Below are positions 8,961-45,765 of a stretch of DNA of 45,765 bases, piece by piece. The notes below the pieces were generated by a model. That model did not search any database. It was not told the DNA's origin and saw only the letters and a program-made list of their open reading frames with translations. The number at the start of each line of letters is the position of its first letter. Position 1 is the stretch's first letter. The position numbers were made by a program, and so were the translations under genes. Source of the stretch: Candidatus Aerophobetes bacterium Ae_b3b (GTDB lineage: Bacteria > Aerophobota > Aerophobia > Aerophobales > AE-B3A); the NCBI GenBank assembly GCA_005223085.1, contig NJBP01000009.1, positions 1-45,765 of the forward strand, in the 5' to 3' direction.

Positions 8961-10061
8961 ATGGCGGAGGTACGCCTAAAAGATGTAACTAAAGAGTTTG
9001 GAAAGGTAGTGGCAGTTAAGGATTTTAATCTGGAAGTTCCAGATGGGGAGTTTGTTATTCTGGTAGGACCTTCCGGGTGTGGAAAGACCACTACTTTAAG
9101 GTCTATTGCCGGTCTGGAAGAGGTGACAGCGGGGGAGATTTATATTGGTGATAGAATGGTCAATGATGTTCCCCCCAAGAATAGAGATATCGCCATGGTC
9201 TTTCAGAACTATGCCCTCTATCCCCATATGGATGTGTACCGGAACATGTCCTTTGGACTGAAGTTGAGGAAAGTTCCCAAACCAGAGATTAATAAAATAG
9301 TAAAGAGAACCGCCGATCTTCTGGGTATAGGTGAGCTGCTCGATAGGAAACCGAAGGAGCTTTCCGGTGGACAGCGCCAGAGAGTAGCTCTGGGAAGAGC
9401 CATCGTACGTGATCCCCATGTGTTCTTATTCGATGAGCCTCTTTCTAACCTTGATGCAAAACTACGAATTGCCATGAGAGCAGAGCTGCTGGACCTGCAT
9501 CAGCGTCTTAAAACCACCACTATTTATGTTACTCATGATCAGCTAGAAGCAATGACCATGGGTGATAGAATTGTGGTCATGAATGAGGGGATAATCCAGC
9601 AAGTGACTACTCCTCAAGACATATATGATCATCCAATCAACCGCTATGTAGCAGGGTTTATCGGCTCTCCGTCTATGAATTTCCTTCCTTGCACCATTGT
9701 CAAAGATAACAGTAATATTTATGCTAGCGCCAAAGGCTTTAAACTGAAAATCCCTTCTGAACAGGCTAAGATGGTGAAGGACTATATCAACAAAGAGGCA
9801 GTGTTGGGAATTAGACCTGAGCATATCGATGCTAAATCGACGGTCAGGGATTATGATCCAGAGAGTGTCTTTGAAGCTTCAGTATGGGTAGTAGAACCTG
9901 TAGGCTCGGAAAAACTTGCCCACATAAAATGCGATCAATATACTCTTGTCGCCCGGCTTGATCCTTATGTCGATTTAAAGTCAGGTCAAACTGCTGAGTT
10001 TGTTGCTAAAATGGACTTGGCTCACATATTTGACAAAGAGACAGAGAGGACAGTCCTTTAG
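8961..10061 (+). CDS. Sugar-type ABC transporter ATP-binding protein (UgpC/MsmK/MalK family)
   Basis: Cytoplasmic ATPase of a carbohydrate importer. Visible: Walker A GPSGCGKTTT (residues 36-45), Q-loop VFQNYALYPHM, signature LSGGQRQRVALGRA, Walker B FLFDEPLSNLDAKL, H-loop VTHDQLEAM, then an OB/TOBE-type C-terminal domain with GIRPEH as in MalK-type proteins. At 366 residues it has the usual length. GGGAGGTGAA lies upstream of the ATG. No permease or binding protein is nearby; the only such genes in the window (38209-41384) lack an ATPase, so this may be a shared, MsmK-like energising subunit. That link is inference. Confidence 0.93.
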   Translation: MAEVRLKDVTKEFGKVVAVKDFNLEVPDGEFVILVGPSGCGKTTTLRSIAGLEEVTAGEIYIGDRMVNDVPPKNRDIAMVFQNYALYPHMDVYRNMSFGLKLRKVPKPEINKIVKRTADLLGIGELLDRKPKELSGGQRQRVALGRAIVRDPHVFLFDEPLSNLDAKLRIAMRAELLDLHQRLKTTTIYVTHDQLEAMTMGDRIVVMNEGIIQQVTTPQDIYDHPINRYVAGFIGSPSMNFLPCTIVKDNSNIYASAKGFKLKIPSEQAKMVKDYINKEAVLGIRPEHIDAKSTVRDYDPESVFEASVWVVEPVGSEKLAHIKCDQYTLVARLDPYVDLKSGQTAEFVAKMDLAHIFDKETERTVL

Positions 10062-11816: not shown

Positions 11817-13257
11817 AAGATTTGAAAAAAGAGAAAAATCCAACTATCCGGGATTCAAAATTAGGGATATTTTTGCTAGATCTCATCTCTGGAAATGGGC
11901 CTGGGGAGTGGGATTGATATCGAGTTTGTCTTTGGTTTTTCTCTTACCCCCTACCAGTGAAATAACTTTTTTCAATAAGTTAGGAATGATCATTCTGATT
12001 ACTTTTTTTGTCATTATTTTCTTCATTTACCTTTGGCGGTTCTGGGTGCAATTTCTTATACCCAAACCTTTGAGTCTCTGTGCGATTTTGATCATCTCGA
12101 TGGCTCTCATGGGTAGAATTATCATCCTCTTACCTCAAGTCTCCAACTATTTTATTCCTATTGCTTTTTTATCCATCCTTGGCTCACTTCTTTTTGCACC
12201 TTCATTGTCGGTTTTAGTAACCTTGCTATTCAGTATCCTCTTTAGCATTAATGCTGCGAGTTTGAACCTTATGCCGGTTCTAGTCATGGGGGGAATCGTG
12301 GGAGCCTACAGCGCTACCTTCGTTCACCAGAGAACCGATTTGACTAAGGGTGGTCTTTATGTGGGTACATCTAATGTATTGATTATATTAGCTGTGGGTC
12401 TACTTGCTAACTATTCTTTTGACCATTGGGACCTCCTTTGGGGAATGGGCGGCGGGTTTTTTTCTAGCATTCTGGCTCTGACGGTTTTGCCTTACCTGGA
12501 AACCTATTTCGGCATTACTACCGATATCAAATTGCTGGAGCTAGGCAATCTCAATCTTCCTCTTTTGAACAGACTATCTATAGAAGCACCGGGGACTTAT
12601 CACCACACCATAATGGTCGCCAGTCTAGCCGAAGCCGGGGCAGAGGCCCTGGGCGCCAATCCTCTCTTGGTCAGGGTGGGAGCCTATTACCATGATGTGG
12701 GTAAGATTCTTCGGCCTCATTTTTTCTTTGAAAATGCTGGGACAGGCAAGAATAATTATCATGACAAGATGGCTCCTAATTTGAGTTCTATGATTGTTAT
12801 CTCTCATGTAAAAGACGGAATAGAACTTGCCCAAAGGAATCGACTCCCTGGACTTGTTACCGACATTATCAGGCAACATCACGGGACAGGACTGATAGCC
12901 TATTTTTATAGGGAAGCACTAAAGGAAAGGGGGGAAGAGAAAGAATCAATACATGAAGAGAATTTCCGTTACCCCGGTCCCAAACCCCGGACAAAAGAGT
13001 CAGCTATTGTAATGCTAGCAGATTCAGTAGAGGCCGCCTTTCGTTTCTCTGCCCAAAAAACTCTGAAGGGTATACAATCGCAGGTAAAGAAAGTGGTGAA
13101 TAATAAATTGAAGGATAATCAACTTGATGAGTGTGATTTAACTTTAGGAGAAATAGCCAGAATATCTGATGCCTTCGTTAGGATTCTTGCCGGTGTTATC
13201 CACACCCGTGGAAGGTATCCGGAGGAGATGCTAAAGAGTCAATCGGTGGTCGGGTGA
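11782..13257 (+). CDS. Compact 7TM-HD phosphohydrolase (PgpH-like)
   Basis: Membrane protein with about six or seven hydrophobic segments between residues 38 and 250 and a cytoplasmic HD domain after residue 265. Metal-binding histidines are visible in TYHHTIMVASLAEAG, GAYYHDVGKI and IRQHHGT. PgpH proteins with this HD domain hydrolyse cyclic di-AMP. The large extracellular HDED domain normally between the first and second membrane segments is missing: this protein is 491 residues against roughly 700. The start at 11782 overlaps phoH by 35 bases (an ATG at 11791 is an alternative) and the stop overlaps ybeY by 4 bases. Placement between phoH and ybeY is usual for this family. Confidence 0.85.
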   Translation: MKIMKKRLKIVKRFEKREKSNYPGFKIRDIFARSHLWKWAWGVGLISSLSLVFLLPPTSEITFFNKLGMIILITFFVIIFFIYLWRFWVQFLIPKPLSLCAILIISMALMGRIIILLPQVSNYFIPIAFLSILGSLLFAPSLSVLVTLLFSILFSINAASLNLMPVLVMGGIVGAYSATFVHQRTDLTKGGLYVGTSNVLIILAVGLLANYSFDHWDLLWGMGGGFFSSILALTVLPYLETYFGITTDIKLLELGNLNLPLLNRLSIEAPGTYHHTIMVASLAEAGAEALGANPLLVRVGAYYHDVGKILRPHFFFENAGTGKNNYHDKMAPNLSSMIVISHVKDGIELAQRNRLPGLVTDIIRQHHGTGLIAYFYREALKERGEEKESIHEENFRYPGPKPRTKESAIVMLADSVEAAFRFSAQKTLKGIQSQVKKVVNNKLKDNQLDECDLTLGEIARISDAFVRILAGVIHTRGRYPEEMLKSQSVVG

Positions 13258-31791: not shown

Positions 31792-31885
<94 letters not shown>

Positions 31886-32631: not shown

Positions 32632-32669
32632 TTGACAAAAATGATTTTAATGGTATACTAAGGTATACT
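32632..32669 (+). promoter_or_regulatory. Promoter and likely operator of the GntR gene
   Basis: TTGACA (32632-32637), 16-base spacer, TATACT (32654-32659). Two copies of GGTATACT, each with the palindrome GTATAC, occur at 32652-32659 and 32662-32669, one helical turn apart and overlapping the -10 box. This is a natural place for the GntR protein encoded 40 bases on to repress itself. Confidence 0.6.
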
Positions 32670-32708: not shown

Positions 32709-33506
32709 ATGTCTCTAGTGCGCACATCCTTTATCCCCTTATATCATCAACTTATCGAGAAACTGAGGCAGAAAATAGAAAGTAGAGAATGGCTTCCTTA
32801 TTCTCTTATCCCCTCTGAAAGACAGTTATCCGAGAAATATCAGGTAAGTCGAGATACCTTAAGGAAGGCGCTCTCAAAACTAAAAGAAGAGGGGCTTCTA
32901 TATCGAAAGCGAGGGAAAGGGACCTTTGTCGCTGGGCCCAGGCTAACCTTTCATAAATTTGATGCCATCGCCAAAGATTTACAAGAACAAGGATTAGATT
33001 CCTCCTTTCGGGTCTTGCAGAATGAGAAAACCATGTCTGATTATTATGTAAGAACTATTTTGCAGCTTGCGGAAGGAGAAATGGTTCATAAGGTAATGCG
33101 GTTATTGCTCGCCGACGGAAGACCTATAGCGCTGGCTGCAGACTATTTCGGAGAGAAGACGGTTCCCGGCTTAGACGAAGAAGAGCTGGAAAAAGTCGCT
33201 CTTTGGGATACTCTAGTTAGAAAATATAACATACACATCACCAGAGTAGAGGAAACGTTTGCCCCTGTGCTCGCAGACGAATTTGAGGCTAAACAACTGG
33301 ATATTCCTTGTAACTCTCCTGTCTTTCTGGTGAGAAGAATTAATTACAGTGAGCGAATTCCTTTTGAATTCGGTGAAACGGTAGTGCGGGGAGACAAATG
33401 CTGTTATTCGGTTGAGCTTTCCTATGAAGGAATGGAAACTCGGTTGCCTCAGGGACATTTTACGCTTTATGTAAGGTCTTTGCAAGATAGATCCACCAGT
33501 AGCTAG
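32709..33506 (+). CDS. GntR-family (HutC/UTRA) transcriptional regulator
   Basis: The N-terminal winged helix (residues 8-77) shows IPLYHQLIEKLRQKIES, LIPSERQLSEKYQVSRDTLR and GLLYRKRGKGTFVAG; the C-terminal UTRA ligand domain (about 95-240) has IALAADYFGEK, LDIPCNSPVFLVRRI and FEFGETVVRGDKCCYSVEL. UTRA regulators usually bind sugars, sugar phosphates or related small molecules. 265 residues. The sequence ATGCACGTGGGGAGAAAAAAATG gives a GGGGAGA ribosome site. It heads the catabolic-looking island and is its likely local regulator. Confidence 0.92.
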   Translation: MSLVRTSFIPLYHQLIEKLRQKIESREWLPYSLIPSERQLSEKYQVSRDTLRKALSKLKEEGLLYRKRGKGTFVAGPRLTFHKFDAIAKDLQEQGLDSSFRVLQNEKTMSDYYVRTILQLAEGEMVHKVMRLLLADGRPIALAADYFGEKTVPGLDEEELEKVALWDTLVRKYNIHITRVEETFAPVLADEFEAKQLDIPCNSPVFLVRRINYSERIPFEFGETVVRGDKCCYSVELSYEGMETRLPQGHFTLYVRSLQDRSTSS

Positions 33507-33848
33507 AAAATATGCTCACATAAAGACGATTGACAATTCTCACTTTCGTTGTGTGATATGTGGATATGGGCACTGTGCTTCGCGAAAAACCTCAGAACTA
33601 GTTGAAGTTAAAGTAAGTTTTTAAGAATGAAATCATTAGAGAACGAACGATGAATCATGCAAATATAGGAGCTTTTTGCCCATGTGTTTTTCTTAATACT
33701 GGTAAAAAACTAAGAAACATATCTTCAGAAATTGAAAAAAGCCCTAGAAGGAAAGATAGAATACTGCAGTAAGGATGATGTTTGTCAAGTGATGTTGTCT
33801 TAACTTGCAGTTCTCTTCGTAGATGATCAGAAATTCGGAGGTCTATGT
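33507..33848 (+). promoter_or_regulatory. 342-base intergenic region, possible promoter for the island
   Basis: No gene seen. TTGACA at 33530-33535 is followed by TGATAT at 33554-33559 (18-base spacer), a weak promoter match. No GTATAC copies like those ahead of the GntR gene are present. The remainder is AT-rich without clear hairpins. Confidence 0.3.
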
Positions 33849-35327
33849 GTGGCGAAAATAGTAGTTTTAGGTTTGGACGGATTTAATCCTGAGTTTGTTA
33901 GACAGTGGTCCAATGAACTGCCTAACTTGATGAAGATGCAAAAGGAGGGAATATGGGGAAGTCTGGAAAGTATAGTTCCTGTTACTATTCCTCAGGCATG
34001 GATATGTGCTCAGTGTGGTCGGGGCCCTGGATCCCACGGTATCTGGGATTTTACCTATAGGAACGAGTTCTCTTATAGTGAGACAAAAGTGGTTAGTTCT
34101 GAGATTACAAGGAGAGTCGATCTATTACAAGCAATTCTTCCCAAGATGGGACAGAGAGTGGGGATAATTAGTGTACCGGTTACCTGGCCATCTCCAAAGA
34201 TTCCGGCAGGTTACGCTATATCTGGTCTTATGACCCTAAGCCTGGATCGTGGCTTTACTTCTCCTGATAGCCTCAAAGATGAGGTCTATAAGTTGGTTGG
34301 GGATTATATTATAGATGTAACCGAGGCCGATATGGATTGCAGCAAAATAGATAAGAGTCATGTGCTCAAAAATATTTATGATATGGATTCACAGCGTTTC
34401 ATATTAACAAAATATTTTATCAATGAAAAGAATTGTGACTATGTTATGACAGTTGTAATGGGAAGTAATTGTATACTAAATCTTTTATATCGTTGTTTTG
34501 ATTCAAAGGGCAAGTATTACGATTCTGATCCTTGTTATAAAGATATTTTACATGATTACTATGTCTGGATTGATAAAAATGTAGGAGAACTTGGTAAGAG
34601 TTTACCTAGGGATGTGGTATTATTCATTCATAGTGGCTATAGCATTCAAAAACTTGATGGACGGATTAATCTTAATGAATGGTTAATCAAAGAGGGATAT
34701 ATGACTCTTCTTGAGTATCCGATGAAGCTGACTTCACTCAAAGATGTTAAAGTGGACTGGTCTAAGACAGAATGCTGGAGTACAGGTTACGGTGGTAAAT
34801 TATATCTCAATATGAAGGGAAGAGAACCGAAAGGAATTGTTGACCCCAAGAGTTACGATGAGCTGTTGGATGAATTGGCTGCTAAGCTGAAAGATATCCC
34901 TGATAAACTTGGAAATCATTTGAACACTCAGATTTGGAAACGAGATGATATATATTTTGATTCGTACGCAAAATATGGTCCAGACTTGTTTGTGAACTTT
35001 AGTGAAGGTCAGTTAGGTACCAGTGAGTTGTTAGGCCATGGCCGGGAAAAGATATACTCATTTGATACAGCAAAAGACTCCGATGATGTAGCACGTGGTC
35101 TATCTGGGTACTTTGTTATAAGCGGACCGGATATACCAGCGGAGGGAGAGCTTAAAGAAGTATCATTACTTAATGTTGCTCCAACGGTTCTAGATATTCT
35201 TGATTTACCAATTCCTAAGAATATGGAGAAACCATCCGTTCTATCTATGGTAAAAAAGGGGGAGGCAACATATTCTAAAGAGTCTGAGAGAGCTGTTCGT
35301 TCTCGGCTTGAATCATTAGGCTATTGA
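33849..35327 (+). CDS. Alkaline-phosphatase-superfamily (type I phosphodiesterase-like) protein, probably catalytically altered
   Basis: The 492-residue protein follows the plan of bacterial type I phosphodiesterase/nucleotide pyrophosphatase-like proteins: IVVLGLDGFNPEFV (D10), the nucleophile region VPVTIPQAW (T46) and GSHGIWDFTYR, then GRINLNEWLIKEGYM and the C-terminal VAPTVLDILDLPIP. Positions that normally hold metal ligands are changed: TATDRVQH-type reads GSNCILN (N207, N211), SDHG reads IHSG (H261, S262), and the late SHRxxG histidine is lost. I infer a non-catalytic or repurposed member. GTG start with GGAGG 7 bases upstream; no signal peptide. A cytoplasmic partner of the neighbouring genes is possible. 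Confidence 0.8.
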   Translation: MAKIVVLGLDGFNPEFVRQWSNELPNLMKMQKEGIWGSLESIVPVTIPQAWICAQCGRGPGSHGIWDFTYRNEFSYSETKVVSSEITRRVDLLQAILPKMGQRVGIISVPVTWPSPKIPAGYAISGLMTLSLDRGFTSPDSLKDEVYKLVGDYIIDVTEADMDCSKIDKSHVLKNIYDMDSQRFILTKYFINEKNCDYVMTVVMGSNCILNLLYRCFDSKGKYYDSDPCYKDILHDYYVWIDKNVGELGKSLPRDVVLFIHSGYSIQKLDGRINLNEWLIKEGYMTLLEYPMKLTSLKDVKVDWSKTECWSTGYGGKLYLNMKGREPKGIVDPKSYDELLDELAAKLKDIPDKLGNHLNTQIWKRDDIYFDSYAKYGPDLFVNFSEGQLGTSELLGHGREKIYSFDTAKDSDDVARGLSGYFVISGPDIPAEGELKEVSLLNVAPTVLDILDLPIPKNMEKPSVLSMVKKGEATYSKESERAVRSRLESLGY

Positions 35328-35653
35328 GCGTTGATAGTAGGGGAAAATAGACAATTGTTTTTTTCTCCTTGAAGAAGCTTCCTGAGATGGAGGTAGAACG
35401 CCTCAATAGCAAATGCCAAAGTTATGCCTGGTCTTTGTGGCTCTTAGTATGAAGTGAGGGAAGGGTTTTAATCTGGAAGGATACCGCTCAGAGGCCTAAG
35501 AACGAGCGGCAAACGCTGTGAGAAATTGTATAGGCCAATCTAGCTTAGGATAAGAAAAAGTTACCCAGGAAGTGTTAAATGAGTCTTCTCTATTCTCAAG
35601 ATTCTTTCGCAAAGCCGAAGTAATCTAATGTATTTATGAAAGGAGAAAATCTA
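35328..35653. other. Intergenic region with no recognised gene
   Basis: 326 bases between the AlkP-fold gene and the first propeller gene. Short open stretches exist (for example near 35386-35450 and 35475-35520), but they lack start sites and resemble no family convincingly. No clear promoter or terminator; a T7 run at 35358-35364 has no stem in front. The region may be decayed sequence. Confidence 0.3.
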
Positions 35654-36823
35654 ATGGGTATTGCACGGACAACTTTGAAAGGTGTCACCCATTATGTTCC
35701 CTCAAGGGCATATAGCGGGTATACTTTATTTAGTCCTATGTTTGGTAAGGATGTATGGCTAGTTGATATGCAAGGTAGAATTGTACATCGCTGGAGGACA
35801 GAACCATATAAACCGAATTTTGCGCGGTTTCTTGCCAATGGTAATCTCCTTTATCAAGGTGTTAAATCGGGGGGTATAATGGGACCAGGGCTTGCCTACC
35901 TCTTTGGTGAGCATTATGAGCAAACCGAAGAAGACAGAGGTGTGTGTTTGATAGAGGTAGATTGGGATAATAACCTGGTATTGAAGTACGAAGAACCACA
36001 ATTTAATCACGACTTTTATCGTATGAAAAACGGAAACACTATGCTTATCAAATATGTAGATGTGCCCGATGACATAAAAAATAAGGTCAAGGGTGGTATC
36101 CCAGGTACAGAGCAAAATGGGATTATGTGGGCTGACGCCCTTAACGAGGTCACCCCCGATGGTGAAGTAGTGTGGGAGTGGCTGGCATATGAGCACCTAG
36201 ACCCGGAGATGGATGTTATTTGTCCTCTAGAGTATCGGGGTGAGTGGACTCACATGAATACGTGCAGTGTTCTACCAGATGGTAATATACTAGGCTCATT
36301 TCGTCAGACTAATACTATCTGTATTATTGATAAGGCTACCGGAAATATCATCTGGCGGTGGGGTCGTGACGAATTAGGCCACCAGCATGAGCCCACCATG
36401 TTGGACAATGGAAATATCCTAGTCTTTGATAATGGACCACACCGTTTCTTATCACAAGACTTAGATTATTATTCTAGAGTACTGGAGGTCAATCCAGCTA
36501 CTAATAAAATTGAGTGGGAATACAAGGATGATCCTCCGTCCGAGTTTTATGCCTTTGGTATGGGAGGAGCTCAGCGATTACCAAATGAAAATACTCTTAT
36601 ATGTGAAACTCATGGAGGCCGCATTTTCGAGGTTACTCGTGATAGAGAGATAATTTGGGAATATGTTAGTCCTTTCTATGGTCCCTTTTTGACTTACGGT
36701 CAGGCTAACCTAATCTATCGAGCCTACCGCTATGGACATGAATATCAGGGATTAAAAGGAAAGAACTTAGATCCTAATAATTTTAGGTGGCTAAACGCAG
36801 TATATGGACCTGGCGCTAAGTAA
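35654..36823 (+). CDS. Arylsulfotransferase (ASST)-type beta-propeller protein, paralog 1
   Basis: ASST enzymes move sulfate between phenolic compounds; many family members have no known substrate. The 389-residue protein has repeated blade ends: FLANGNLLY, MKNGNTM, LPDGNIL, LDNGNIL and LPNENTL, each followed by a strand, and between them VVWEWLAYEH, IIWRWGRDELGHQHEP, KIEWEYKDDP and IIWEYVSP. Candidate active-site residues are H119 (FNHDF), H200 (WTHMN), H243/H245 (GHQHEP) and R308. No signal peptide, unlike periplasmic ASSTs. ATG 35654 is preferred to 35636 because AAAGGAG lies between them and paralog 2 begins at the same residue (MGIAR). Confidence 0.8.
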   Translation: MGIARTTLKGVTHYVPSRAYSGYTLFSPMFGKDVWLVDMQGRIVHRWRTEPYKPNFARFLANGNLLYQGVKSGGIMGPGLAYLFGEHYEQTEEDRGVCLIEVDWDNNLVLKYEEPQFNHDFYRMKNGNTMLIKYVDVPDDIKNKVKGGIPGTEQNGIMWADALNEVTPDGEVVWEWLAYEHLDPEMDVICPLEYRGEWTHMNTCSVLPDGNILGSFRQTNTICIIDKATGNIIWRWGRDELGHQHEPTMLDNGNILVFDNGPHRFLSQDLDYYSRVLEVNPATNKIEWEYKDDPPSEFYAFGMGGAQRLPNENTLICETHGGRIFEVTRDREIIWEYVSPFYGPFLTYGQANLIYRAYRYGHEYQGLKGKNLDPNNFRWLNAVYGPGAK

Positions 36824-36853
36824 ATATTTTCAGTACCGCAAGGAGGAAATCCA

Positions 36854-37972
36854 ATGGGAATCGCACGAACCAGTTTGAAAGGTGTTACCCATTATATTCA
36901 GTCAAATGCGTATAATGGGTATACTTTGTTTACTCCTTTAGGATCAACTGAGACAGTGTTAATTGATATGCAGGGGCGGGTTGTTCATCAATGGAAGATG
37001 CCCTATCCGCCAGGATTGTATGGAATACTTTTGGAGAACGGTAACTTCCTTTATGGCGGGCATGTAGAAAAAGGACTTTTACCCGACTTGAGAGGTGCTG
37101 GGGGAGAGTTGATAGAAGTAGATTGGGATGGCAACTTAGCTTGGAATTACAAAGACCCATACTTGCATCATAGTTTTTGTCGTTTGTCCAATGGAAATAC
37201 CATGGTCCTCAGATGGGTGGAGGTACCCAAGGATATTTCCGCTAAAATCGAAGGTGGTATGGCAGGGACAGAAAAGGATAGAATTATGTGGGGTGATTCT
37301 TTCCGAGAGGTCAACCCGCGTGGCAAGGTGGTATGGGAATGGTTGGCATACGAGCACCTGGATCCAGAAATAGATACCATCTGTCCTCTGTGCCCTCGCA
37401 GTCAGTGGACTGAGGCTAATTCATTCGCGATCCTATCAAATGGGGACATATTGGCTAGCTTTGCCCGGCTCAACACTATATGCATCATCAGTAAGGCTAC
37501 GGGTGATATCAAGTGGCGATGGGGTTCCGGAGGAGAACTAGGGCATCAAAATCATGCTACCGTCCTTGAAAATGGGAATATTCTTCTGTTCGATAACGGG
37601 ACACATTGTATCCATTTTTCCCAAGGATACTCCCGCGTTCTGGAGATAGACCCGGCTACTAACAAAATGGTCTGGGAATACAAGGATGACCCCTGGATGG
37701 CTTTCTATAGTGCTTATATGTCTAGCTGTCAGCGACTACCCAATGAGAATACCTTGATATGTGAGGCAGCAACAGGACGAATCTTCGAGGTAACAAAAAC
37801 AGGAAGGATTGTTTGGGAATTTGTTAATCCCTTTTCTTCCACGTTTGATCCGGTCTATGGGCATAACCATATTATCCCTAAAGCATACCGATACGGTCCA
37901 GAATATGGGGGTCTAAAAGCGAAGAATTTAGAGTACTCAGTTTACTTGATTGAAAGAGGAAGATTTGCCTAA
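36854..37972 (+). CDS. Arylsulfotransferase (ASST)-type beta-propeller protein, paralog 2
   Basis: Tandem paralog of the preceding gene over its whole length (MGIARTSLKGVTHYIQSNAY; VVWEWLAYEHLDPEID; NTICIISKATGDIKWRWG; QRLPNENTLICEA), 372 residues. The histidine of WTHMN in paralog 1 is Glu here (WTEAN), and GHQHEP is GHQNHA, so the two probably differ in activity or form an unequal pair. No signal peptide. AAGGAGGAAA precedes the ATG; the 30-base gap from paralog 1 points to one transcript. Confidence 0.8.
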   Translation: MGIARTSLKGVTHYIQSNAYNGYTLFTPLGSTETVLIDMQGRVVHQWKMPYPPGLYGILLENGNFLYGGHVEKGLLPDLRGAGGELIEVDWDGNLAWNYKDPYLHHSFCRLSNGNTMVLRWVEVPKDISAKIEGGMAGTEKDRIMWGDSFREVNPRGKVVWEWLAYEHLDPEIDTICPLCPRSQWTEANSFAILSNGDILASFARLNTICIISKATGDIKWRWGSGGELGHQNHATVLENGNILLFDNGTHCIHFSQGYSRVLEIDPATNKMVWEYKDDPWMAFYSAYMSSCQRLPNENTLICEAATGRIFEVTKTGRIVWEFVNPFSSTFDPVYGHNHIIPKAYRYGPEYGGLKAKNLEYSVYLIERGRFA

Positions 37973-38208
37973 GTACAGTGGATTTATGGCAGAAACAAGT
38001 GACAGTAAGGCCAACTGACTTATTCTCTTCTCAATTCAATCCAAGGAGGAGGTGAGATTGGAATGGGGGATGAGAGGAGCGTACCAATAACGAAAACAAT
38101 GGACAAAGGAGCAGTAAGAGGAGGTTGCGATTTATGAAGTATGACCAGAAAGGTATCGTACCTTACCTGCTTCTACTTTATCCATAATAACCCATAGGAG
38201 GGAACAGC
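37973..38208 (+). other. Gap with fragments of a truncated gene, upstream of the binding protein
   Basis: 236 bases. Two short frames each have a good ribosome site: 38064-38138 (AAGGAGGAGG upstream, starts MGDERSVPIT) and 38134-38187 (AGAGGAGG upstream, MKYDQKGIVPYLLLLYP). The second resembles the first membrane segment of an ABC sugar permease cut off after 17 residues. Either decayed genes or leader peptides; I cannot decide. No promoter identified. Confidence 0.3.
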
Positions 38209-39567
38209 ATGTGTAGAAAATTGTCAGTAGGAATTATGGTATTGTTGTTAAGTATTTTCGTTGTTCTGGGAACAACAGCGGCAGTAGCTCAGGCAGAGAC
38301 TGTGATAGGAGAAGATGTTCTTCAAGCCGGACGACCTTATGAGGGAACCACTCTTAGGTTTATCAGCTTGAATTATCTTTACAGCAAAGCCATTCAGCAA
38401 CTGACTCCCCATTTCGAGAAAGCTACGGGGATGAAAGTGGAAATCGAATTATATGGAACTGAGGATAATTTCATTAAGCAAGTAAGTGAACTGTCCATGG
38501 GTGGTTATGCTTATGATATAGTCCAAGTTCCTCCCTTTAACCAACCTCAGTATATGGCAGCTGGGTGGCTTAGTCCACTGGATGATTACCTTCAAGATTC
38601 CCGTTTTACTCCTTCAGCCTTTGACGCAGATGATTTTTTCAAAGTAGGAATGGAATTCGGAAGTCGTGAAGGGATACAGTACACTCTTCCTATATTCTCG
38701 GCCACTATACTCTATTACTACCGGACCGATGTGTTTGATAAATACGGCATAGCGGGTCCTGCGGAGACTTTTGAAGAGCTATTGGATATCAGCAAAAAGA
38801 TCCAGTCTGATGAGATAGCTGCCATTGTACTCCGAGGGAAACCGAGTATCGAGCAGAACATGTGGCCTTTTGGGCTGATCGCCCGTGGATATAGCTCGTT
38901 TTTCAAGGATTATCCCGATGATCTTCACCCCAACCTCACCGATCCAAACTTCCTAAAGGCGGCCAATCTCTGGAAGGAACTATTTCAGTATGGCCCGCCC
39001 GGGATCAACACCTTTTCGCATGAAGAGGTTATCTTGTATGCCCAGAAAGGTCTTGCTGCTCAGTGGATAGATGGGCATCCTCTTGCTGGTCTGTTCTTGG
39101 ATCCCGAAAGATCAAGCGTGGTAGGTAAGGTCGCGGTAGCAAAGACACCCCGGGGCCCAAAGGGATGGTTTCCCGCCTTTTCAGAACATGGAATTGGTAT
39201 AGCCAGAGGTTCTCTGCAGAAAGATGCCGCATGGGAGTTCATCAAGTGGGCTAGTAGTAAAGAGGTGCTTTTAGAGGCTAGCCAAATAAGTCAGTACTTG
39301 GCGGTAACCAGGAGGTCGGTATTTGCAGACCCCAGATTCAGAGAAAAATACTCCTATTTTGGAGGAACCTTTTTGGATATATCTAACGAAACTCTGCAGG
39401 CCAGAAGCCTGTATTTTCCTCCAATTCCGGAATGGCCCACAGTAGGGCATGTCATTGCCAGAGCTCTGTCTGAGGTGACTTCAGGTATTAAGAGCGCACA
39501 AGACGCCTTTAGTGGAGCTAACTCCACCGTAGATAGGATTATGAAAAGCGCTGGATACTACAAATAA
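38209..39567 (+). CDS. Extracellular solute-binding protein (family 1, CUT1 sugar type)
   Basis: Periplasmic receptor of an ABC importer, 452 residues. Signal peptide with hydrophobic core IMVLLLSIFVVLGTTAAVA, cleavage likely near AQA. Mature part has the family 1 fold: TLRFISLNYLYSKAIQQLTPHFEKATG-like first lobe, YDIVQVPPFNQPQYMAAGWLSPLDDY, TLPIFSATILYYYRTDVFDKYGI, then AWEFIKWASS. No lipobox, so soluble in the periplasm. AGGAGGG lies 6 bases upstream of the ATG. Followed by a strong hairpin and two permease genes. Substrate unknown; a carbohydrate or polyol derivative is likely from the family. Confidence 0.92.
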   Translation: MCRKLSVGIMVLLLSIFVVLGTTAAVAQAETVIGEDVLQAGRPYEGTTLRFISLNYLYSKAIQQLTPHFEKATGMKVEIELYGTEDNFIKQVSELSMGGYAYDIVQVPPFNQPQYMAAGWLSPLDDYLQDSRFTPSAFDADDFFKVGMEFGSREGIQYTLPIFSATILYYYRTDVFDKYGIAGPAETFEELLDISKKIQSDEIAAIVLRGKPSIEQNMWPFGLIARGYSSFFKDYPDDLHPNLTDPNFLKAANLWKELFQYGPPGINTFSHEEVILYAQKGLAAQWIDGHPLAGLFLDPERSSVVGKVAVAKTPRGPKGWFPAFSEHGIGIARGSLQKDAAWEFIKWASSKEVLLEASQISQYLAVTRRSVFADPRFREKYSYFGGTFLDISNETLQARSLYFPPIPEWPTVGHVIARALSEVTSGIKSAQDAFSGANSTVDRIMKSAGYYK

Positions 39568-39591
39568 TCTCCGTTCCCGGCAGATAAATAC

Positions 39592-39633
39592 CAAAGGTGG
39601 TCTCAGACGTGTGATTCTCTGAGACCACCTTTG
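39592..39633 (+). terminator. Strong intercistronic hairpin after the binding-protein gene
   Basis: Perfect 16-base stem (39592-39607 with 39618-39633; CAAAGGTGGTCTCAGA on the left arm), 10-base loop, no T-run after it. More likely an mRNA-stabilising or partial-termination hairpin that keeps binding protein above permease levels than a full terminator. The stem core AAGGTGG...CCACCTT resembles the hairpin after the porin. Confidence 0.75.
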
Positions 39634-39646
39634 TCGAGGTTTATCC

Positions 39647-40519
39647 GTGGCTTTACGTAAAGAGGAAAAAAGGGCTAATGCATTATTTTCGGTGCCTATG
39701 ATTATAGTAATTGGAGCACTGACCATAATTCCACTCACATATATGGTTTATATTTCAACGACTTCCTGGAATCTAGCAAGACCCTGGGGGACTACTTTTG
39801 TAGGATGGGACAACTATTCATATCTGTTGAAAGACCCTGATTTAATCCAGGTAATTCTGGTTACCCTGTATTTTGTGATTTTCTGCGTGGCCGGACAGAT
39901 GGCTTTGGGACTCGGTATTGCAATTCTCCTTCATGCTAACGTAAAAACAATCTCGAAAACTCGTTCTCTTTTCATATTCCCTATGGTTTTGGCTCCGATT
40001 ATTGTGGGGCTGGTCTGGAAAATATTTCTAAATCCACAGTTAGGAGGTCTTGCGGCCTGGTTAAACCTTTTAGGTCTACCTACCGTATCTTTGCTGGGTA
40101 GTGCTCGGGGAGCTGTGACGGCCATCATCATCGCCTCCATTTGGGAGTGGTTTCCTTTCGTGATGCTCATATTGCTCGGAGCCTTGGAATCTTTTCCTGA
40201 AGAGCCTTTTGAGGCAGCACACGTGGACGGTGCCAGTAGTACTCAGATATTTTGGCACATTACCTTACCTTTACTCAAGCCGGCTTTGCTTTTAGCTCTC
40301 TCCTTCCGAGTTATTGAAAGTATGAAGATATTCCCTCTGATTTTCATGATGACCGGTGGAGGTCCAGGCAAGTCAACCAGTAGTATAGACTACTATGCTT
40401 ATTTAAACGGGTTTGTGTATTTAGATATTGGCTACTCTTCGGCCCTGATGGTAATAATGCTCATTCTAACTTCCGTGCTTTGTTTCTCATTGTTCAGATC
40501 CTTGTTTGTCAGTCGTTAA
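39647..40519 (+). CDS. ABC sugar transporter permease, MalF/UgpA-like
   Basis: Inner-membrane channel subunit, 290 residues with six hydrophobic segments starting at LFSVPMIIVIGALTIIPLTYM. The EAA loop that docks the ATPase reads EEPFEAAHVDGASSTQIFWH followed by ITLPLLKP. GTG start (39647) 13 bases after the hairpin; no clear SD because the hairpin occupies that space, so translation may be modest. Pairs with the next gene. Confidence 0.93.
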   Translation: MALRKEEKRANALFSVPMIIVIGALTIIPLTYMVYISTTSWNLARPWGTTFVGWDNYSYLLKDPDLIQVILVTLYFVIFCVAGQMALGLGIAILLHANVKTISKTRSLFIFPMVLAPIIVGLVWKIFLNPQLGGLAAWLNLLGLPTVSLLGSARGAVTAIIIASIWEWFPFVMLILLGALESFPEEPFEAAHVDGASSTQIFWHITLPLLKPALLLALSFRVIESMKIFPLIFMMTGGGPGKSTSSIDYYAYLNGFVYLDIGYSSALMVIMLILTSVLCFSLFRSLFVSR

Positions 40520-40550
40520 GAAAAGAGTTGCTTCCCTGAGGAGATGTACC

Positions 40551-41384
40551 ATGGAATATAAGAGTGTCGCATATATTAAAAAAGCAGTACTCATAATGAT
40601 TACGATTGGAGGATTATTCGCTATACTTATTCCTCTCATTTGGCTTTTTTTGATTTCTATTAAATCTCCCTTGGAGGCGTTTAGGCCTGAGTCCTTCTGG
40701 GTGTTCACTCCTACCTTTAGAAATTACTTCGATGCAATTTCTAATCCCTCAATTCGGAGATACTTTGTTAATAGTTTTGTAGTGGCAAGTCTGTCTCTTG
40801 CTATTTCCATGATTATCGGAGTTCCTGCCGCCTTTGCATTCTCGAAGTTAAAGAGCAGGTTTAAGAATTTCCTTCTCGTGTACATTGTACTTGCACGCAT
40901 GATACCTCCTATGATCTTTATTATTCCCTATTTCATATTGTATCAGAGATTGAATCTAATAAACACAAGAATAGGGCTCGCCGTTGTCTACACCAACTTT
41001 AATGTGGCTTTGGTTGTATGGTCTATGTGGACATTTTTCAATGAAGTACCCCAAGATCTATTAGAAGTTGCCCGTATTGACGGAGCTTCCATTTATCAAA
41101 TTTTCTACAAGATCTTTCTCCCTTTGTCTGCTCCAGGATTGACGACAACTGCTATTATCTGTTTTCTAATGTCCTGGAACGAATTTCTATTCGCTCTCAT
41201 CCTAACCCGGGGCGCTACCAAAACCATACCCGTGGGGATAATAGATTTGATTTCTTATGAAGGCGTAAACTGGGGATTGGTCAGTTCCGGAGCAATACTC
41301 ATGCTTTTGCCCATGCTTCTCTTTGCCCACCTCTCACGGAAATATATTGTTAAAGGACTTCTGGGCGGTGCACTAAAAGGTTAA
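40551..41384 (+). CDS. ABC sugar transporter permease, MalG/UgpE-like
   Basis: Second channel subunit, 277 residues, six membrane segments from AVLIMITIGGLFAILIPLIW. EAA loop: VPQDLLEVARIDGASIYQIF, then LPLSAPG. The ATG at 40551 has TGAGGAG 7 bases upstream; a longer frame opening at 40506 would overlap the previous gene and lacks an SD. No ATPase gene follows; the only candidate in the window is at 8961. Confidence 0.93.
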   Translation: MEYKSVAYIKKAVLIMITIGGLFAILIPLIWLFLISIKSPLEAFRPESFWVFTPTFRNYFDAISNPSIRRYFVNSFVVASLSLAISMIIGVPAAFAFSKLKSRFKNFLLVYIVLARMIPPMIFIIPYFILYQRLNLINTRIGLAVVYTNFNVALVVWSMWTFFNEVPQDLLEVARIDGASIYQIFYKIFLPLSAPGLTTTAIICFLMSWNEFLFALILTRGATKTIPVGIIDLISYEGVNWGLVSSGAILMLLPMLLFAHLSRKYIVKGLLGGALKG

Positions 41385-41419
41385 GGGGTTAAATGGATAA
41401 CTACATGAAGGAGAGGAAC

Positions 41420-41527
41420 ATGTACACGTGGTCAGAGGGGGTAGGAAGTCACTATCGATTTCACGAGATGGCCTCTGAAGAACTCACATTTCTTGAGAAA
41501 TGTGAGGCGGCCACGCAAACTCGATAA
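41420..41527 (+). CDS. Possible small ORF (35 residues) containing a perfect palindrome
   Basis: ATG at 41420 follows AAGGAGAGG and reads MYTWSEGVGSHYRFHEM onward to a TAA at 41525-41527. No family recognised. It contains the inverted repeat CTCACATTTCT (41483-41493) / AGAAATGTGAG (41496-41506), 11 bases with a 2-base centre, which may be an operator or a hairpin ahead of the UroD-like gene. Whether the peptide is made is open. Confidence 0.3.
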   Translation: MYTWSEGVGSHYRFHEMASEELTFLEKCEAATQTR

Positions 41528-41605
41528 ATAAGATATCAACTACCTTTTTTGCAGATCTGGACTTCAAATACCTGTTCTTAATTACACTTGTCAAGGAGGA
41601 CTACA

Positions 41606-42790
41606 ATGACTTCCAAAGAACGGATCTTGGGTGCTATCAAGGGCCAAGAGATTGACCGAGTTCCCATCTATGCTCCATTTCTAACTGCTCGGGTGATCAA
41701 TCCTGCTCATGTTCCAGTAGTACCGCCAATAAGCAATTTACTGCAGGACGGGATAAGTGCTTTAGATGATTGGCTGACAAAAGATCCTAATTACTTGCAA
41801 ATTACCAAATTAGTTAATGAAAAATGTGAAAAAGTCTGGTCTTACTACTTTCGAGAACTTGACAGATGGTTTTTATTAACACCTAGAGAATTTATAAAAG
41901 TGGCTAAAGTGGAAGAAGAAAATGATTCTATTTTGATAAAGTATCAAGTTCGAACCCCCAAAGGCAATTTAGAATATATTTGTGAGAAGCGTAAAGATAT
42001 TTCTACAGTTTGGGATAGAAAGTATATAATTAAAGATAAAAAAGATGTGGAAAGGATCCTTTCTGTTCCTTATACTCTTCAAAAATCTGATATTGAAGAT
42101 TTTTTCAAATACAGAAGAGAGATAGAGGAGAAAGGCGGCTTGATGTACATATTTGTAAGTATTCCCATGGTGTGTGTATCTCAACTTTTCCCCTTTGAGC
42201 AGTTTTTGACCTGGTGTGCAACTGAGAGATCTACCCTAGTGAGACTCATCGAAACTGCTTTCGAGAGAATATTCGAACAGCTTGAATATCTTCTCCAAAA
42301 TGGAGTGGGCCCCATATTTCACTTTGGAGGCTCAGAGCAAGCAACCCCACCTATGATGTCTCCCGAACTCTACGATGAGTTTGTGCTAAAATATGATAGT
42401 AGATTTTTCGATTTGGTCCATCGTTACGGCAGTTATGTAGCCGTACACTGTCATGGGCGAGTGGGAAGTATTCTAGACAAGTTGATTGATATGGGAGTCG
42501 ACCTTCTTGATCCTGTAGAAGCCCCTCCTGGTGGAGACATTGAAATTGGAGAGGCAAAAAGGAAGGTTAAAGGTAGAATAACTTTAGTGGGTAATATTCA
42601 AATCAGCGATATGGAGAACTGTACTCCTGAGGAAATTGATGAGAAGGTAAAAGAGGCTATATTCTCTGGTGGAAAAGAGAAATTCATATTAGGTACTACC
42701 GAAGGCCCTCTATCATCTGTCTCGGATAGAATGAAAGAAAACTACATACGGTTTGTTGAAGCGGGAATCAAATATGGGAGGTTCAATTGA
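41606..42790 (+). CDS. Uroporphyrinogen-decarboxylase-family protein (MtaA/CmuA-like)
   Basis: The family includes heme-pathway UroD and methyltransferases acting on corrinoid-bound methyl groups. Visible: MTSKERILGAIKGQEIDRVP at the start, FHFGGSEQATPPMMSPELYDEFV, and the metal-binding region VAVHCHGRVGSILDKLIDMGVDLLDPVEAPPGGD split over ~34 residues, then LVGNIQ and ILGTTEGP. The usual H-x-C of MtaA reads H-C-H. Low-number sequence identity is expected to true UroD and there are no heme genes nearby, so methyl transfer or an unknown reaction in the island's pathway is likelier. ATG 41606 with AAGGAGGA; 394 residues. No corrinoid protein gene is visible. Confidence 0.85.
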   Translation: MTSKERILGAIKGQEIDRVPIYAPFLTARVINPAHVPVVPPISNLLQDGISALDDWLTKDPNYLQITKLVNEKCEKVWSYYFRELDRWFLLTPREFIKVAKVEEENDSILIKYQVRTPKGNLEYICEKRKDISTVWDRKYIIKDKKDVERILSVPYTLQKSDIEDFFKYRREIEEKGGLMYIFVSIPMVCVSQLFPFEQFLTWCATERSTLVRLIETAFERIFEQLEYLLQNGVGPIFHFGGSEQATPPMMSPELYDEFVLKYDSRFFDLVHRYGSYVAVHCHGRVGSILDKLIDMGVDLLDPVEAPPGGDIEIGEAKRKVKGRITLVGNIQISDMENCTPEEIDEKVKEAIFSGGKEKFILGTTEGPLSSVSDRMKENYIRFVEAGIKYGRFN

Positions 42791-43163
42791 TTAGGGAGAT
42801 TATTTCATAAATTTTATTCTTATTCACCGTTTAATATAACGTTTGATAAGGCAATGGTTTTTTAGTCTTTTTGTACAATCGTGGAGTTTAAGTGAGGAGT
42901 AATAAATTGAACAAATTAATGAGGGAGACATTTTAAGGGGATAGGGAGAGGTAAAATATGAAATGATGCCTATCCCTAAAACAAAATTAGAAGAGGTATT
43001 AGTTGCTGTTAAAGCAGCAGGAATCCGTGGTTCAGGTCTTTAGATATAAGAGAATGTAGTGCTTGTCATGACGGGTAAACTTAAAGGTCTGCGCTACATC
43101 TTTGTTAGGTAAAGGAGGCCCATTTTTTTGTTTATTGAAATTTATTTTTAATAGGAGACAGAG
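42791..43163 (+). other. 373-base gap holding gene debris
   Basis: Apart from the dehydrogenase fragment listed separately, no gene is seen. GGGATAGG (42938-42945) and CCTATCCC (42969-42976) form an 8-base inverted repeat over the fragment's start. The region is AT-rich; no convincing sigma70 promoter was found for the dehydrogenase gene. Confidence 0.35.
42963..43043 (+). pseudogene. Fragment of a zinc-dependent alcohol dehydrogenase N-terminus
   Basis: A 26-residue frame reads PIPKTKLEEVLVAVKAAGIRGSGL then stops. This parallels the N-terminal strand of medium-chain dehydrogenases, P-x-P...EVLVKVKAAGICGSDL, but the zinc cysteine is Arg and the Asp is Gly, and the rest is absent. It lies 120 bases before an intact dehydrogenase of the same family, so it may be a decayed duplicate. 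Confidence 0.5.
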
Positions 43164-44267
43164 ATGTTTAGTCCCAAAGCTAAGAAAAATTTTATGTTAG
43201 CAGTGGTAGGATACAAGCCTCAAGATTATCGTTTGGAAGAAGTTCCCATACCCAAAGTCGGACCTGAAGAGGTGGTAATCAAAGTAAAACAAGTGGGCAT
43301 ATGCGCCAGCGACTTAAAATGTTACCAGGGAGCCGATAGATTCTGGAAAGGACCTCCTGCTCCTTATGTCAAGCCTCCCTTTATTCCGGGACATGAATTT
43401 ATCGGGGAAGTAGTAAAACTTGGTCCTGGAGCATCTGAGAAATATAATCTTAAAATTGGAGATAAAGCGATCTCTGAACAGATTTTACCTTGCTGGAATT
43501 GTAGGTTTTGTCTCAGTGGGAAATATTGGATGTGCGAGACTAACAATGTATATGGGTTTCATGGAGGAATAGATGATGGAGGGATGGCTGAATATATGAA
43601 ATTCCCTCAGGGAACTATCAATTATAAGGTACCAAGAGATTTACCCGATGATGTAGCGGTAATGATTGAGCCTTTATCCTGTGCTATTCATGCAGTACAA
43701 AGGGCAAACATTGAGTTGGGAGATATAGTGGTTATTGCTGGTGCTGGAGCAATTGGTCTTTGTATGTTGCAGGTAGCTAAACTAAAAAATCCAGGAAAGT
43801 TGATAATGTTGGATACGAAAGAAAAACGACTTAAGATTGCTCAAGAATTAGGAGCAGATATAGTTATTAATGTAGCTGAAGAAGATGCTGTAGCTAGAGT
43901 AAAGGATTCAAGTGATGGTTATGGATGCGATATTTACATAGAAGCTAGTGGTTATCCTCAAGCGGTAGAGCAGGGTTTGGAAATGATAAGAAAACTTGGC
44001 ACCTATGTAGAATTTGGAGTATTTGGTCATGAGGCTAAAGTGGACTGGAGCATCATTGGCGATCAAAAAGAGTTAAACATTCGGGGCTCACATTTAGGTC
44101 CTTATTGCTATCCTTTGGCTATTGAGTATCTGAGAAAAAGATTAGTAAAAGTAGATATGATAGTAACTCATACTTTTCCTTTAAGAGAGTATAAAAAAGC
44201 CATAAAGATAGCTTCTGGGGGTCACGATTCTATTAGGGTAACGTTAGCTCCTAATGAGAATACATGA
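43164..44267 (+). CDS. Zinc-dependent polyol dehydrogenase, erythritol/L-threitol dehydrogenase-like
   Basis: Medium-chain dehydrogenase, 367 residues. Catalytic zinc ligands: C in GICASDLKCYQG, H in IPGHEFIGEVV, E in the same block; structural zinc cysteines in PCWNCRFCLSGKYWMC. NAD site VVIAGAGAIGLCMLQVA with an aspartate after the second strand (MLDTKEKR), indicating NAD over NADP. The combination ASDLKCYQGADRFW, EQILPCWNCR and RGSHLGPYCYPLAIEYL recalls erythritol/L-threitol dehydrogenases (EltD) from memory of that family. Expected role: oxidation of a tetritol or similar polyol. ATAGGAGACAG lies upstream of the ATG. Confidence 0.87.
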   Translation: MFSPKAKKNFMLAVVGYKPQDYRLEEVPIPKVGPEEVVIKVKQVGICASDLKCYQGADRFWKGPPAPYVKPPFIPGHEFIGEVVKLGPGASEKYNLKIGDKAISEQILPCWNCRFCLSGKYWMCETNNVYGFHGGIDDGGMAEYMKFPQGTINYKVPRDLPDDVAVMIEPLSCAIHAVQRANIELGDIVVIAGAGAIGLCMLQVAKLKNPGKLIMLDTKEKRLKIAQELGADIVINVAEEDAVARVKDSSDGYGCDIYIEASGYPQAVEQGLEMIRKLGTYVEFGVFGHEAKVDWSIIGDQKELNIRGSHLGPYCYPLAIEYLRKRLVKVDMIVTHTFPLREYKKAIKIASGGHDSIRVTLAPNENT

Positions 44268-44410
44268 TTGATATTGGTGTGAATATAAAGTAACTTGATA
44301 GAAGATTCTCAAAAATTTGTTTATCTGAGTGTTACTTGAGTTTATTGCAACTTCTTCCTTATTTTCTAAAAAAATATGAGTATTTATTAGCTGAAGGGAA
44401 GGAATATTAG

Positions 44411-45616
44411 ATGAAAAATGTTATCTTGTTAACGGTGGATACATTAAGAAAAGATACCTTAGGGTGTTATGGTAATGAAGATAAATTAACTCCATTTATT
44501 GATTCTTTGCAGGATAAATGCATCAGATTTACAAAGGCCCAATCCATTGGACCATATACCCAGGCATCATTTCCGGGGATACTCACCTCTTCTTATTATC
44601 TTGAATATGGGAGAGGAAAGAAGCTTTCACCAAAAAGGACTTTGATTTCTGAGGTTCTTCAAAAAACTAAAATTACAACAGCCGCGTTTCATTCAAATCC
44701 ATATCTGTGTGATTTTTTTGGCTGGAATAGAGGTTGGGACATCTTTTATGATTCTATGGAGGCAGATGTTACTCCAGAGGTTCCTTATGTAAAGGGTGAT
44801 GGGATTAACAAAGAGGTGAGTGAGTGGTTATCCTCGCGTGTTAAAGAGAAAGAATACAAACCGTTTTTCCTATGGCTGCATTATATGGATGTCCATGAGC
44901 CTTATATTCCTGAAAAGAAATATGTTGACATGGTAGATCCTTCTGTCAATCTCACTCAAGACGAGATGTTCACTCTATTTAAGAATGTATTGTTGAAGAG
45001 AGATGCTTCGGATAAGGGAACGGTAAAGCTTCTAAAGAAGCTCTATGACGCTCATGTTCGGGAGGTCGATGATTACATCAAGGATTTCTTTGGCATATTG
45101 GAGAGATTTAACCTTTTAAAGAACTCGCTAGTTATTATGACCTCAGATCACGGTGATGAATTTAATGAACACGGTGGTCTTTCTCATGATGGTAAGATGT
45201 ATTCAGAGCTTATAGATATACCTTTCCTTATTTATGATTATGACACGGCTAAGGCTGAGGTTTGCCATGCCTTAGTTAGTAATATTGATATACCCCCCAC
45301 TATAGTTCATCTATTTGCCCTTGAGCCAGTAAATGATTTTGAAGGTCATTCCCTTCTTCCCCTTGAAGATTATCCCAAGAAGGGATGCTTTGGAGAATCT
45401 ATTAGTAAGATAGGTCACAAAGAAAAGGAAACAGATAAACCGATCTATTTTTATCAAGAAGATGAGCAAAAAATAATTTACCGACAAGATAGCAATATCT
45501 GGGAAATGTATGGTCTTAAAGAAGATCCTAAAGAGCTAAACAACATAATTGGCACATCAGTTATGGCAAGGGAGATGAAGGAGAAATTAAGGCCCCGAAT
45601 TAAGAAGATGGGCTAA
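44411..45616 (+). CDS. Sulfatase/phosphodiesterase-fold hydrolase with intact metal site
   Basis: 401 residues, alkaline phosphatase superfamily. Metal ligands: D10 and D15 in LLTVDTLRKDTLGCYG, D246 and H247 in TSDHGDEFNEHG; also FLWLHYMDVHEPYIP, the usual sulfatase-like substrate loop. The nucleophile region reads GPYTQASFPGILTS: Thr (T50) stands where Cys or Ser of the sulfatase C/S-x-P-x-R motif would be and both P and R are missing, so it is not a formylglycine sulfatase; phosphate or phosphonate ester hydrolysis is as likely. GAAGGGAAGGA precedes the ATG. No signal peptide, so cytoplasmic. Confidence 0.88.
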   Translation: MKNVILLTVDTLRKDTLGCYGNEDKLTPFIDSLQDKCIRFTKAQSIGPYTQASFPGILTSSYYLEYGRGKKLSPKRTLISEVLQKTKITTAAFHSNPYLCDFFGWNRGWDIFYDSMEADVTPEVPYVKGDGINKEVSEWLSSRVKEKEYKPFFLWLHYMDVHEPYIPEKKYVDMVDPSVNLTQDEMFTLFKNVLLKRDASDKGTVKLLKKLYDAHVREVDDYIKDFFGILERFNLLKNSLVIMTSDHGDEFNEHGGLSHDGKMYSELIDIPFLIYDYDTAKAEVCHALVSNIDIPPTIVHLFALEPVNDFEGHSLLPLEDYPKKGCFGESISKIGHKEKETDKPIYFYQEDEQKIIYRQDSNIWEMYGLKEDPKELNNIIGTSVMAREMKEKLRPRIKKMG

Positions 45617-45664
45617 ATTGTAAGAAATACGACCGAAGAACATATTATACGAGGAGGATTAAAG

Positions 45665-45765
45665 ATGAGCGAAGAGGTAAAGAAAAGATGTGCAGAATTA
45701 ATTGAGAAATCAAAAGGGGTAGTGCGCGAAACATTTGAAAAATTCAAACCCTCTAAGATGGCTAT
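45665..45765 (+). CDS. Start of a gene cut by the window edge, possibly PAPS-reductase-like
   Basis: ATG 45665 with GAGGAGG 7 bases upstream; 33 residues visible (MSEEVKKRCAELIEKSKGVV, then a stretch ending KFKPSKMA). The helix followed by a FKPSKMA-type strand entry resembles the start of phosphoadenosine-phosphosulfate reductase/CysD-like ATP pyrophosphatases, in which a GGKDS loop would come next, but the diagnostic part lies outside. Treat the identity as a guess; the gene itself is well supported by its ribosome site and position. Confidence 0.5.
   Translation, partial: MSEEVKKRCAELIEKSKGVVRETFEKFKPSKMA

Follow-up and report, generated by a model that had tools for sequence, protein, structure and literature searches.

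A Recurring Gene Cassette with Paired Arylsulfotransferase-Type Propellers and Its Link to Sulfate Activation in Candidatus Aerophobetes

Four of the ten genes that close a contig of Candidatus Aerophobetes bacterium Ae_b3b, namely those for PDE, ASST1, ASST2 and SULF (see list below), belong to a cassette that recurs in other bacterial genomes together with ATP sulfurylase (Sat) and a CysD-like protein. The linkage of the cassette to sulfate-activating enzymes suggests that sulfate is attached to some intracellular molecule. The four genes may be read as a Sat-less copy of a cassette for sulfate activation and sulfuryl transfer, in which a hydroxy compound taken up by the cell would receive a sulfuryl group in the cytoplasm and ASST2 and PDE would take part without catalysis; we place this reading at roughly even odds (probability about 0.5). 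The cluster as a whole looks like two interleaved things, the recurring cassette and a separate, ordinary uptake unit.

The Gene Cluster

The window, i.e., the whole stretch of DNA that was analyzed, is the entire contig C57 (45,765 bp) of an incomplete MAG of 2.04 Mb (88.6% complete). All ten genes are on the + strand, downstream of a tRNA-Ser gene (31792-31884), as described in an earlier note made from the sequence. The ten gene calls of that note are correct at the family level, with positions that are exact or a few codons off in ORF and Pfam checks, and all ten products score over the curated Pfam cut-offs:

32709-33506, +, GntR/UTRA (HutC-type) regulator (PF00392 and PF07702 over cut-off)
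33849-35327, +, PDE, type I phosphodiesterase fold whose metal site is lost, cassette member and predicted pseudoenzyme (PF01663, 81 bits)
35636-36823, +, ASST1, arylsulfotransferase-type propeller, predicted cytoplasmic, catalytic residues complete, cassette member (PF05935/PF14269)
36854-37972, +, ASST2, ASST1 paralogue without the catalytic residues, cassette member (PF05935/PF14269)
38209-39567, +, ABC importer solute-binding protein (SBP_bac_1; PF01547) with an N-terminal hydrophobic signal segment by hydropathy
39647-40519, +, ABC importer permease 1 (BPD_transp_1; PF00528)
40506-41384, +, ABC importer permease 2 (BPD_transp_1; PF00528)
41588-42790, +, UroD-like protein (PF01208, 71 bits)
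43164-44267, +, zinc-type medium-chain dehydrogenase (ADH_N/ADH_zinc_N; PF08240 and PF00107)
44411-45616, +, SULF, AlkP fold (Pfam Sulfatase) with Thr50 at the formylglycine position, cassette member (PF00884, 148 bits)

The genes are separated by 30-373 bp, except for a 14-bp overlap of the two permease genes, and this spacing leaves room for several transcription units. The sole strong promoter-like match (11/12) is at 32632-32659, upstream of the GntR gene; counted together, such matches are no more numerous than in shuffled sequences. No common operator-like inverted repeat was recognized for the GntR protein, and its gene was not found next to the other cassette copies in the neighborhoods compared. 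The contig ends 149 bp past the last gene, and further genes of the cluster may lie beyond this end. About 31 kb upstream on the same contig contains genes that by eye are of housekeeping type (miaB, tyrS, ligA, lpxC, uppS, ftsA, ahcY, rplU), which makes a misbinned cluster fragment unlikely. The upstream region also includes, on the - strand at 22303-25284, a 993-aa ORF that by eye is an RtcB-type RNA ligase split by an intein (starting with CLSGKS and ending with HNFITNNFVVSN-C).

Cassette Copies in Bacteria

A second ASST pair of the source genome (G000) is present on contig C25, where the genes are transcribed in the order ABC importer-PDE-ASST1-ASST2-Sat-SULF-CysD-like. Identity between the C57 and C25 copies is 66% for SULF, 67% for PDE and 86% for ASST1, and Sat and the CysD-like gene are missing from the window copy. 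A member of the same family (G006/G021, locus L006) has the order PDE-ASST1-ASST2-SULF-CysD-Sat. In a Chloroflexota MAG (G023, locus L011), the order is TRAP importer-Sat-SULF-CysD-PDE-ASST1-ASST2, and this genome carries two further ASST pairs, one of which adjoins a TRAP importer. In a second Chloroflexota MAG, from the Dehalococcoidia (G022, locus L007), eleven functionally different genes, among them those for a TRAP importer and an apparent IlvD/EDD-type dehydratase, stand between PDE-ASST1-ASST2 and the subsequent Sat-SULF-CysD; two TauE/SafE-family exporters stand directly after the CysD-like gene (L127, 879-2099 and 2386-3540). Apparent rpoB and rpoC genes, recognized by eye, are on the same L007 contig, which therefore probably belongs to G022.

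The six families are thus co-located in four genomes, which represent two lineages of bacteria, and the grouping of the 33849 protein, the ASST pair and the 44411 protein exceeds chance, as these recur jointly in other genomes. The earlier note had named recurrence in distant genomes as the test of a functional unit; the 33849 protein and the paralogue pair do recur in this way, and the UroD-like gene is not shared by the other cassette copies.

The cassette is rare when searched for by its PDE. Among 386 "relatives" (mostly a broad bacterial sample), it was found only in G000 (two copies) and G006; among 400 genomes of the phylum of G023, only in G023; and in the order of G022 and G023, in these two of 156 genomes. 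The other matches were ordinary PDEs with far weaker scores. This rare and patchy occurrence, with two genomes in the small phylum of the source organism and 2/156 in the G022/G023 order, suggests horizontal transfer of the cassette.

Link to Sulfate Activation

Exactly one Sat is encoded in each of the five genomes with an ASST pair (G000, G006, G022, G023 and the archaeon G024), always on the contig that bears an ASST pair; the comparison covers these five genomes, all incomplete MAGs. No Sat was found in three family members that are without ASST. By rough, post hoc arithmetic, the chance that a random gene lies within 15 kb of the pair is about 2-4% per genome, or about 1e-5 for three lineages. 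The C25 Sat is a full member of its family (492 bits against a cut-off of 387). Sat of the own family has 35% identity to that of Chloroflexota, and Chloroflexota Sat 42% to archaeal Sat, whereas the CysD-like protein, SULF and PDE have 47-67% identity between the own family and Chloroflexota. Sat therefore derives from at least two lineages, for which repeated recruitment is the simplest reading, and on these identities the gene has probably been recruited more than once.

The CysD-like protein is the sole protein with a PAPS-reductase domain in G000 and in G022. It retains the PP-loop, the RRDE and ERDIW motifs and the C-terminal ER.GR...GY motif; its score of 76 bits is below the CysD cut-off of 195, it has a likeness to FAD synthase as well, and CysN was not seen next to its gene. 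APS kinase over the cut-off was found in none of G000, G006, G022 and G023 (incomplete MAGs), so that in these four bacteria activation seems to end with APS.

ASST1 and ASST2

The presence of PF05935 and PF14269 over the cut-off assigns both ASST1 and ASST2 to the PAPS-independent arylsulfotransferase family. In a profile alignment to PDB 3elq, AssT residues H356, N358, R374 and H436 correspond to ASST1 H206, N208, R223 and H251, and the catalytic residue set of ASST1 consists of H125, H206, N208, R223 and H251. The equivalents of the four AssT residues are present in all six pair-type ASST1 proteins (own family, L007, L008, L011); the third ASST pair of G023 has Tyr at the H356 position. In ASST2 of the own family, the four positions are occupied by E, N, A and N, and the Chloroflexota copies have lost the H356 and/or R374 equivalent and retain that of H436.

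An AlphaFold2 model of ASST1 (pLDDT 85) has its best structural match in Cpz4 (Z 33, 20% identity), followed by E. coli AssT (Z 28-29; 28.7), and unrelated propellers reach Z ≤22. A signal peptide was not found in ASST1. The statement of the earlier note that the enzymes of the cluster look cytoplasmic is borne out in that they are without signal peptide or membrane segment.

PDE and SULF

PDE (33849) had been described as an altered AlkP protein, and residue comparison confirms that its metal ligands are lost. The DH pair of the metal site, present in 98% of 54 ordinary PDE relatives, is replaced by GY, GY, CF, NY and AY in the five module copies, and the remaining ligands in these five are variable or lost. 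An active type I phosphodiesterase/nucleotide pyrophosphatase was rejected on this loss, and PDE is predicted from its residues to be a pseudoenzyme.

In SULF (44411), Asp10, Thr50, Asp246, His247 and Lys262 are invariant in five of five orthologues, and the metal site looks intact. Thr50, within TQASF, occupies the position of the formylglycine Cys, a column that is Thr in related proteins too. As the Cys/Ser of the C/S-x-P-x-R motif is thereby replaced, a formylglycine (type I) sulfatase was rejected for this protein. The predicted structure of SULF, obtained from three input sequences, is of low confidence (pLDDT 35). AlkP-fold "sulfatases" are also seen around the C25 cassette (L005 175-1554, L005 14001-15419 and L129 2899-4272), the first two having Thr for Cys at the formylglycine position (TMPMR and TLQVR, respectively); judged from these residues, a Thr-type AlkP-fold group may be common in the source genome.

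The loss of active sites in ASST2 and PDE, together with the closeness of the CysD-like protein to FAD synthase, which may mean that it adenylylates a target other than sulfate, would fit a cassette that adenylylates or phosphorylates something else, with the CysD-like protein as the key enzyme and the propellers as binding or structural proteins. Such a role is very improbable, given the retention of the ASST1 active-site residues in 6/6 pair-type copies and a linked Sat that is over the cut-off and unique in each genome.

The Importer, UroD-Like and Dehydrogenase Genes

The ABC importer, UroD-like and dehydrogenase genes are not common to the other cassette copies. A genome of the same order (G012) has an IclR-AlkP-UroD-ABC operon (L187, 5363-11996) without ASST or PDE, and its UroD-like protein is 65% identical to that of the window (41588); the AlkP-fold protein of this operon is 75% identical to the neighbor of the C25 cassette at L005 14001. 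The L187 operon is followed at 12186 by another UroD-like gene. The view of the earlier note that all ten genes form one pathway was therefore abandoned, because of the G012 operon and because different importers stand beside the other cassette copies. The importer, UroD-like and dehydrogenase genes instead resemble a unit for uptake and catabolism that belongs to these organisms.

The UroD-like protein matches the general URO-D Pfam family only: it scores 66 bits with the NCBIfam MtaA/CmuA model against a cut-off of 235 and so falls short of the MtaA/CmuA corrinoid methyltransferases. It has HCHG where corrinoid methyltransferases are expected to carry HxCG, and a third zinc Cys is not obvious. 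For the dehydrogenase (43164), the nearest NCBIfam models are threonine and scyllo-inosose dehydrogenases, below all cut-offs. The importer (38209-41384) is without its own ATPase gene. On its + strand at 8961-10061, the window encodes an isolated ABC ATPase of sugar type, which by eye is MsmK/UgpC-like and may serve this importer. Because importers stand beside most cassette copies, an imported small molecule may be the sulfuryl acceptor.

The same importers, and the dehydrogenases or dehydratases that likewise adjoin most copies, are accommodated by the model of the earlier note, in which a sulfated or methylated polyol is imported, loses its substituent and is oxidized. In such a route, the ASST pair would move the sulfuryl group to an acceptor, SULF would hydrolyze the ester and the dehydrogenase would oxidize the polyol. 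The cytoplasmic location of the enzymes is consistent with this, and the TauE/SafE-family exporters of G022 could export a sulfur anion. Removal of a substituent is nevertheless doubtful: PDE is degenerate and a predicted pseudoenzyme, SULF is without the formylglycine residue, and UroD and importer genes recur without ASST. A catabolic route has no need of ATP sulfurylase, and the linkage of the cassette to this enzyme indicates sulfate activation and transfer rather than substituent removal. For Sat to act in reverse, a sulfate ester would have to be converted to APS, a very unfavorable step in energetic terms; on these general grounds, Sat running backwards for ATP gain was dropped.

Archaeal Arrangements

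ASST relatives occur in 17 of 288 genomes sampled from the order of the archaeon G024. G024 itself has ASST-ASST-APS kinase-Sat, and L160 has ASST-ASST-APS kinase. At L165, ASST adjoins a CysD-like protein, an AlkP-fold protein, PDE and a SULF-like protein; at L167, PDE-ASST-CysD-like is found, with APS kinase 1.7 kb away on the opposite strand; L164 has PDE-ASST, and at L174 and L175 ASST adjoins a PDE-like protein. The archaeal PDEs have kept the metal site. The remaining archaeal ASST genes of the sample are without such neighbors or lie on short contigs. The association therefore extends beyond the six-gene cassette without being universal. ASST pairs adjoining APS kinase were noted at L018 2994-7170 and L160 5266-8382; L018 also has Sat, and its first ASST has N-terminal membrane segments.

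Comparison with Known Systems

What bacterial arylsulfotransferases do in the cell, and on which natural substrates, is described as poorly understood in a 2026 review (PMC13426309), and the known enzymes use aryl sulfates as donors, not APS or PAPS (PMC13426309). Literature searches on ASST with ATP sulfurylase or Chloroflexi, and on Aerophobetes with sulfatase, returned nothing direct. AssT of E. coli CFT073 (assT-dsbL-dsbI; PDB 3elq, 3ets) is matched by ASST1 in its propeller fold and in H356, N358, R374 and H436. However, AssT is located in the periplasm and its gene is accompanied by those for DsbL/DsbI (PMC13426309), whereas ASST1 is without a signal peptide and stands beside sulfate activation genes.

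Two known systems come closest, namely Cpz4 with Cpz8 in caprazamycin formation and the ascamycin cluster. Cpz4, the caprazamycin ASST (PDB 9kf4, 9kf6), has the same catalytic residue set as ASST1, and its pathway includes a sulfate-activating route. As described in PMC4257720, it works with the PAPS-dependent Cpz8, which makes the phenolic sulfate that serves as its donor, and with a phenolic carrier. As Cpz4 is the closest structure to ASST1 and all studied ASSTs use aryl sulfates (PMC13426309), a similar relay may be considered, in which a phenolic carrier is sulfated by an enzyme that depends on PAPS or APS and then gives up the sulfuryl group, through ASST1, to the final acceptor. The conserved cassette genes include no PAPS-dependent sulfotransferase or phenol-making gene, and APS kinase was not found in the four bacteria (incomplete MAGs), which makes this relay quite unlikely. 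Compared with the Cpz4 system, the cassette has a propeller pair, one of them degenerate, with PDE, SULF, the CysD-like protein and Sat.

The ascamycin cluster (acmA-acmW), for 5'-O-sulfamate formation, brings together genes for CysD, APS kinase, a sulfotransferase and a sulfatase-family protein and in this resembles the cassette, a likeness by description. Ascamycin is abolished by inactivation of acmG (sulfatase) or acmK (sulfotransferase) (PMC4257720). Unlike the cassette, this cluster includes APS kinase and CysN, and acmK is described as PAPS-dependent (PMC9113183). Neither the caprazamycin nor the ascamycin system, as described in these sources (PMC4257720, PMC9113183), has an ASST pair with a phosphodiesterase-fold pseudoenzyme.

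Proposed Mechanism and Significance

From this genomic evidence, which consists of the families, residue states, gene linkage and co-occurrence observed and the APS kinase not found, we infer the direction of the reaction, its donor and acceptor, and the roles of ASST2, PDE, SULF and the CysD-like protein. In the sulfuryl-transfer reading, Sat, aided or replaced by the CysD-like PP-loop protein, would form cytoplasmic APS (adenosine 5'-phosphosulfate), and His251 of ASST1 would be loaded with the sulfuryl group either from APS or via an intermediate carrier. A small compound, plausibly a substrate of the adjacent importer, would then receive this group from ASST1 on a hydroxyl. ASST2 and PDE would be non-catalytic partners, as a subunit or a binding scaffold, and SULF would use its Thr as a phospho- or sulfo-hydrolase or transferase, with a donor by-product or the product as its substrate. 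A neighboring uptake and catabolic unit would be formed by the ABC, UroD-like and dehydrogenase genes.

In its most specific form, the sulfation would be PAPS-free, with ASST1, in complex with ASST2 and the pseudo-phosphodiesterase, taking the sulfuryl group directly from APS made by Sat and/or the CysD-like protein. APS as the terminal donor is a tentative and rather unlikely proposal; if true, it would provide an ASST with a physiological donor, such as is known for only a minority of these enzymes.

Because the natural role of ASSTs is poorly understood (PMC13426309), the linkage of Sat and ASST is worth testing. The occurrence of an ASST pair with sulfate activation in two bacterial lineages, with archaeal kin, leads to the testable proposal of a cytoplasmic donor made from inorganic sulfate, and, if this is true, two conserved partners, ASST2 and the phosphodiesterase-fold protein, would have been retained after the loss of their active sites.
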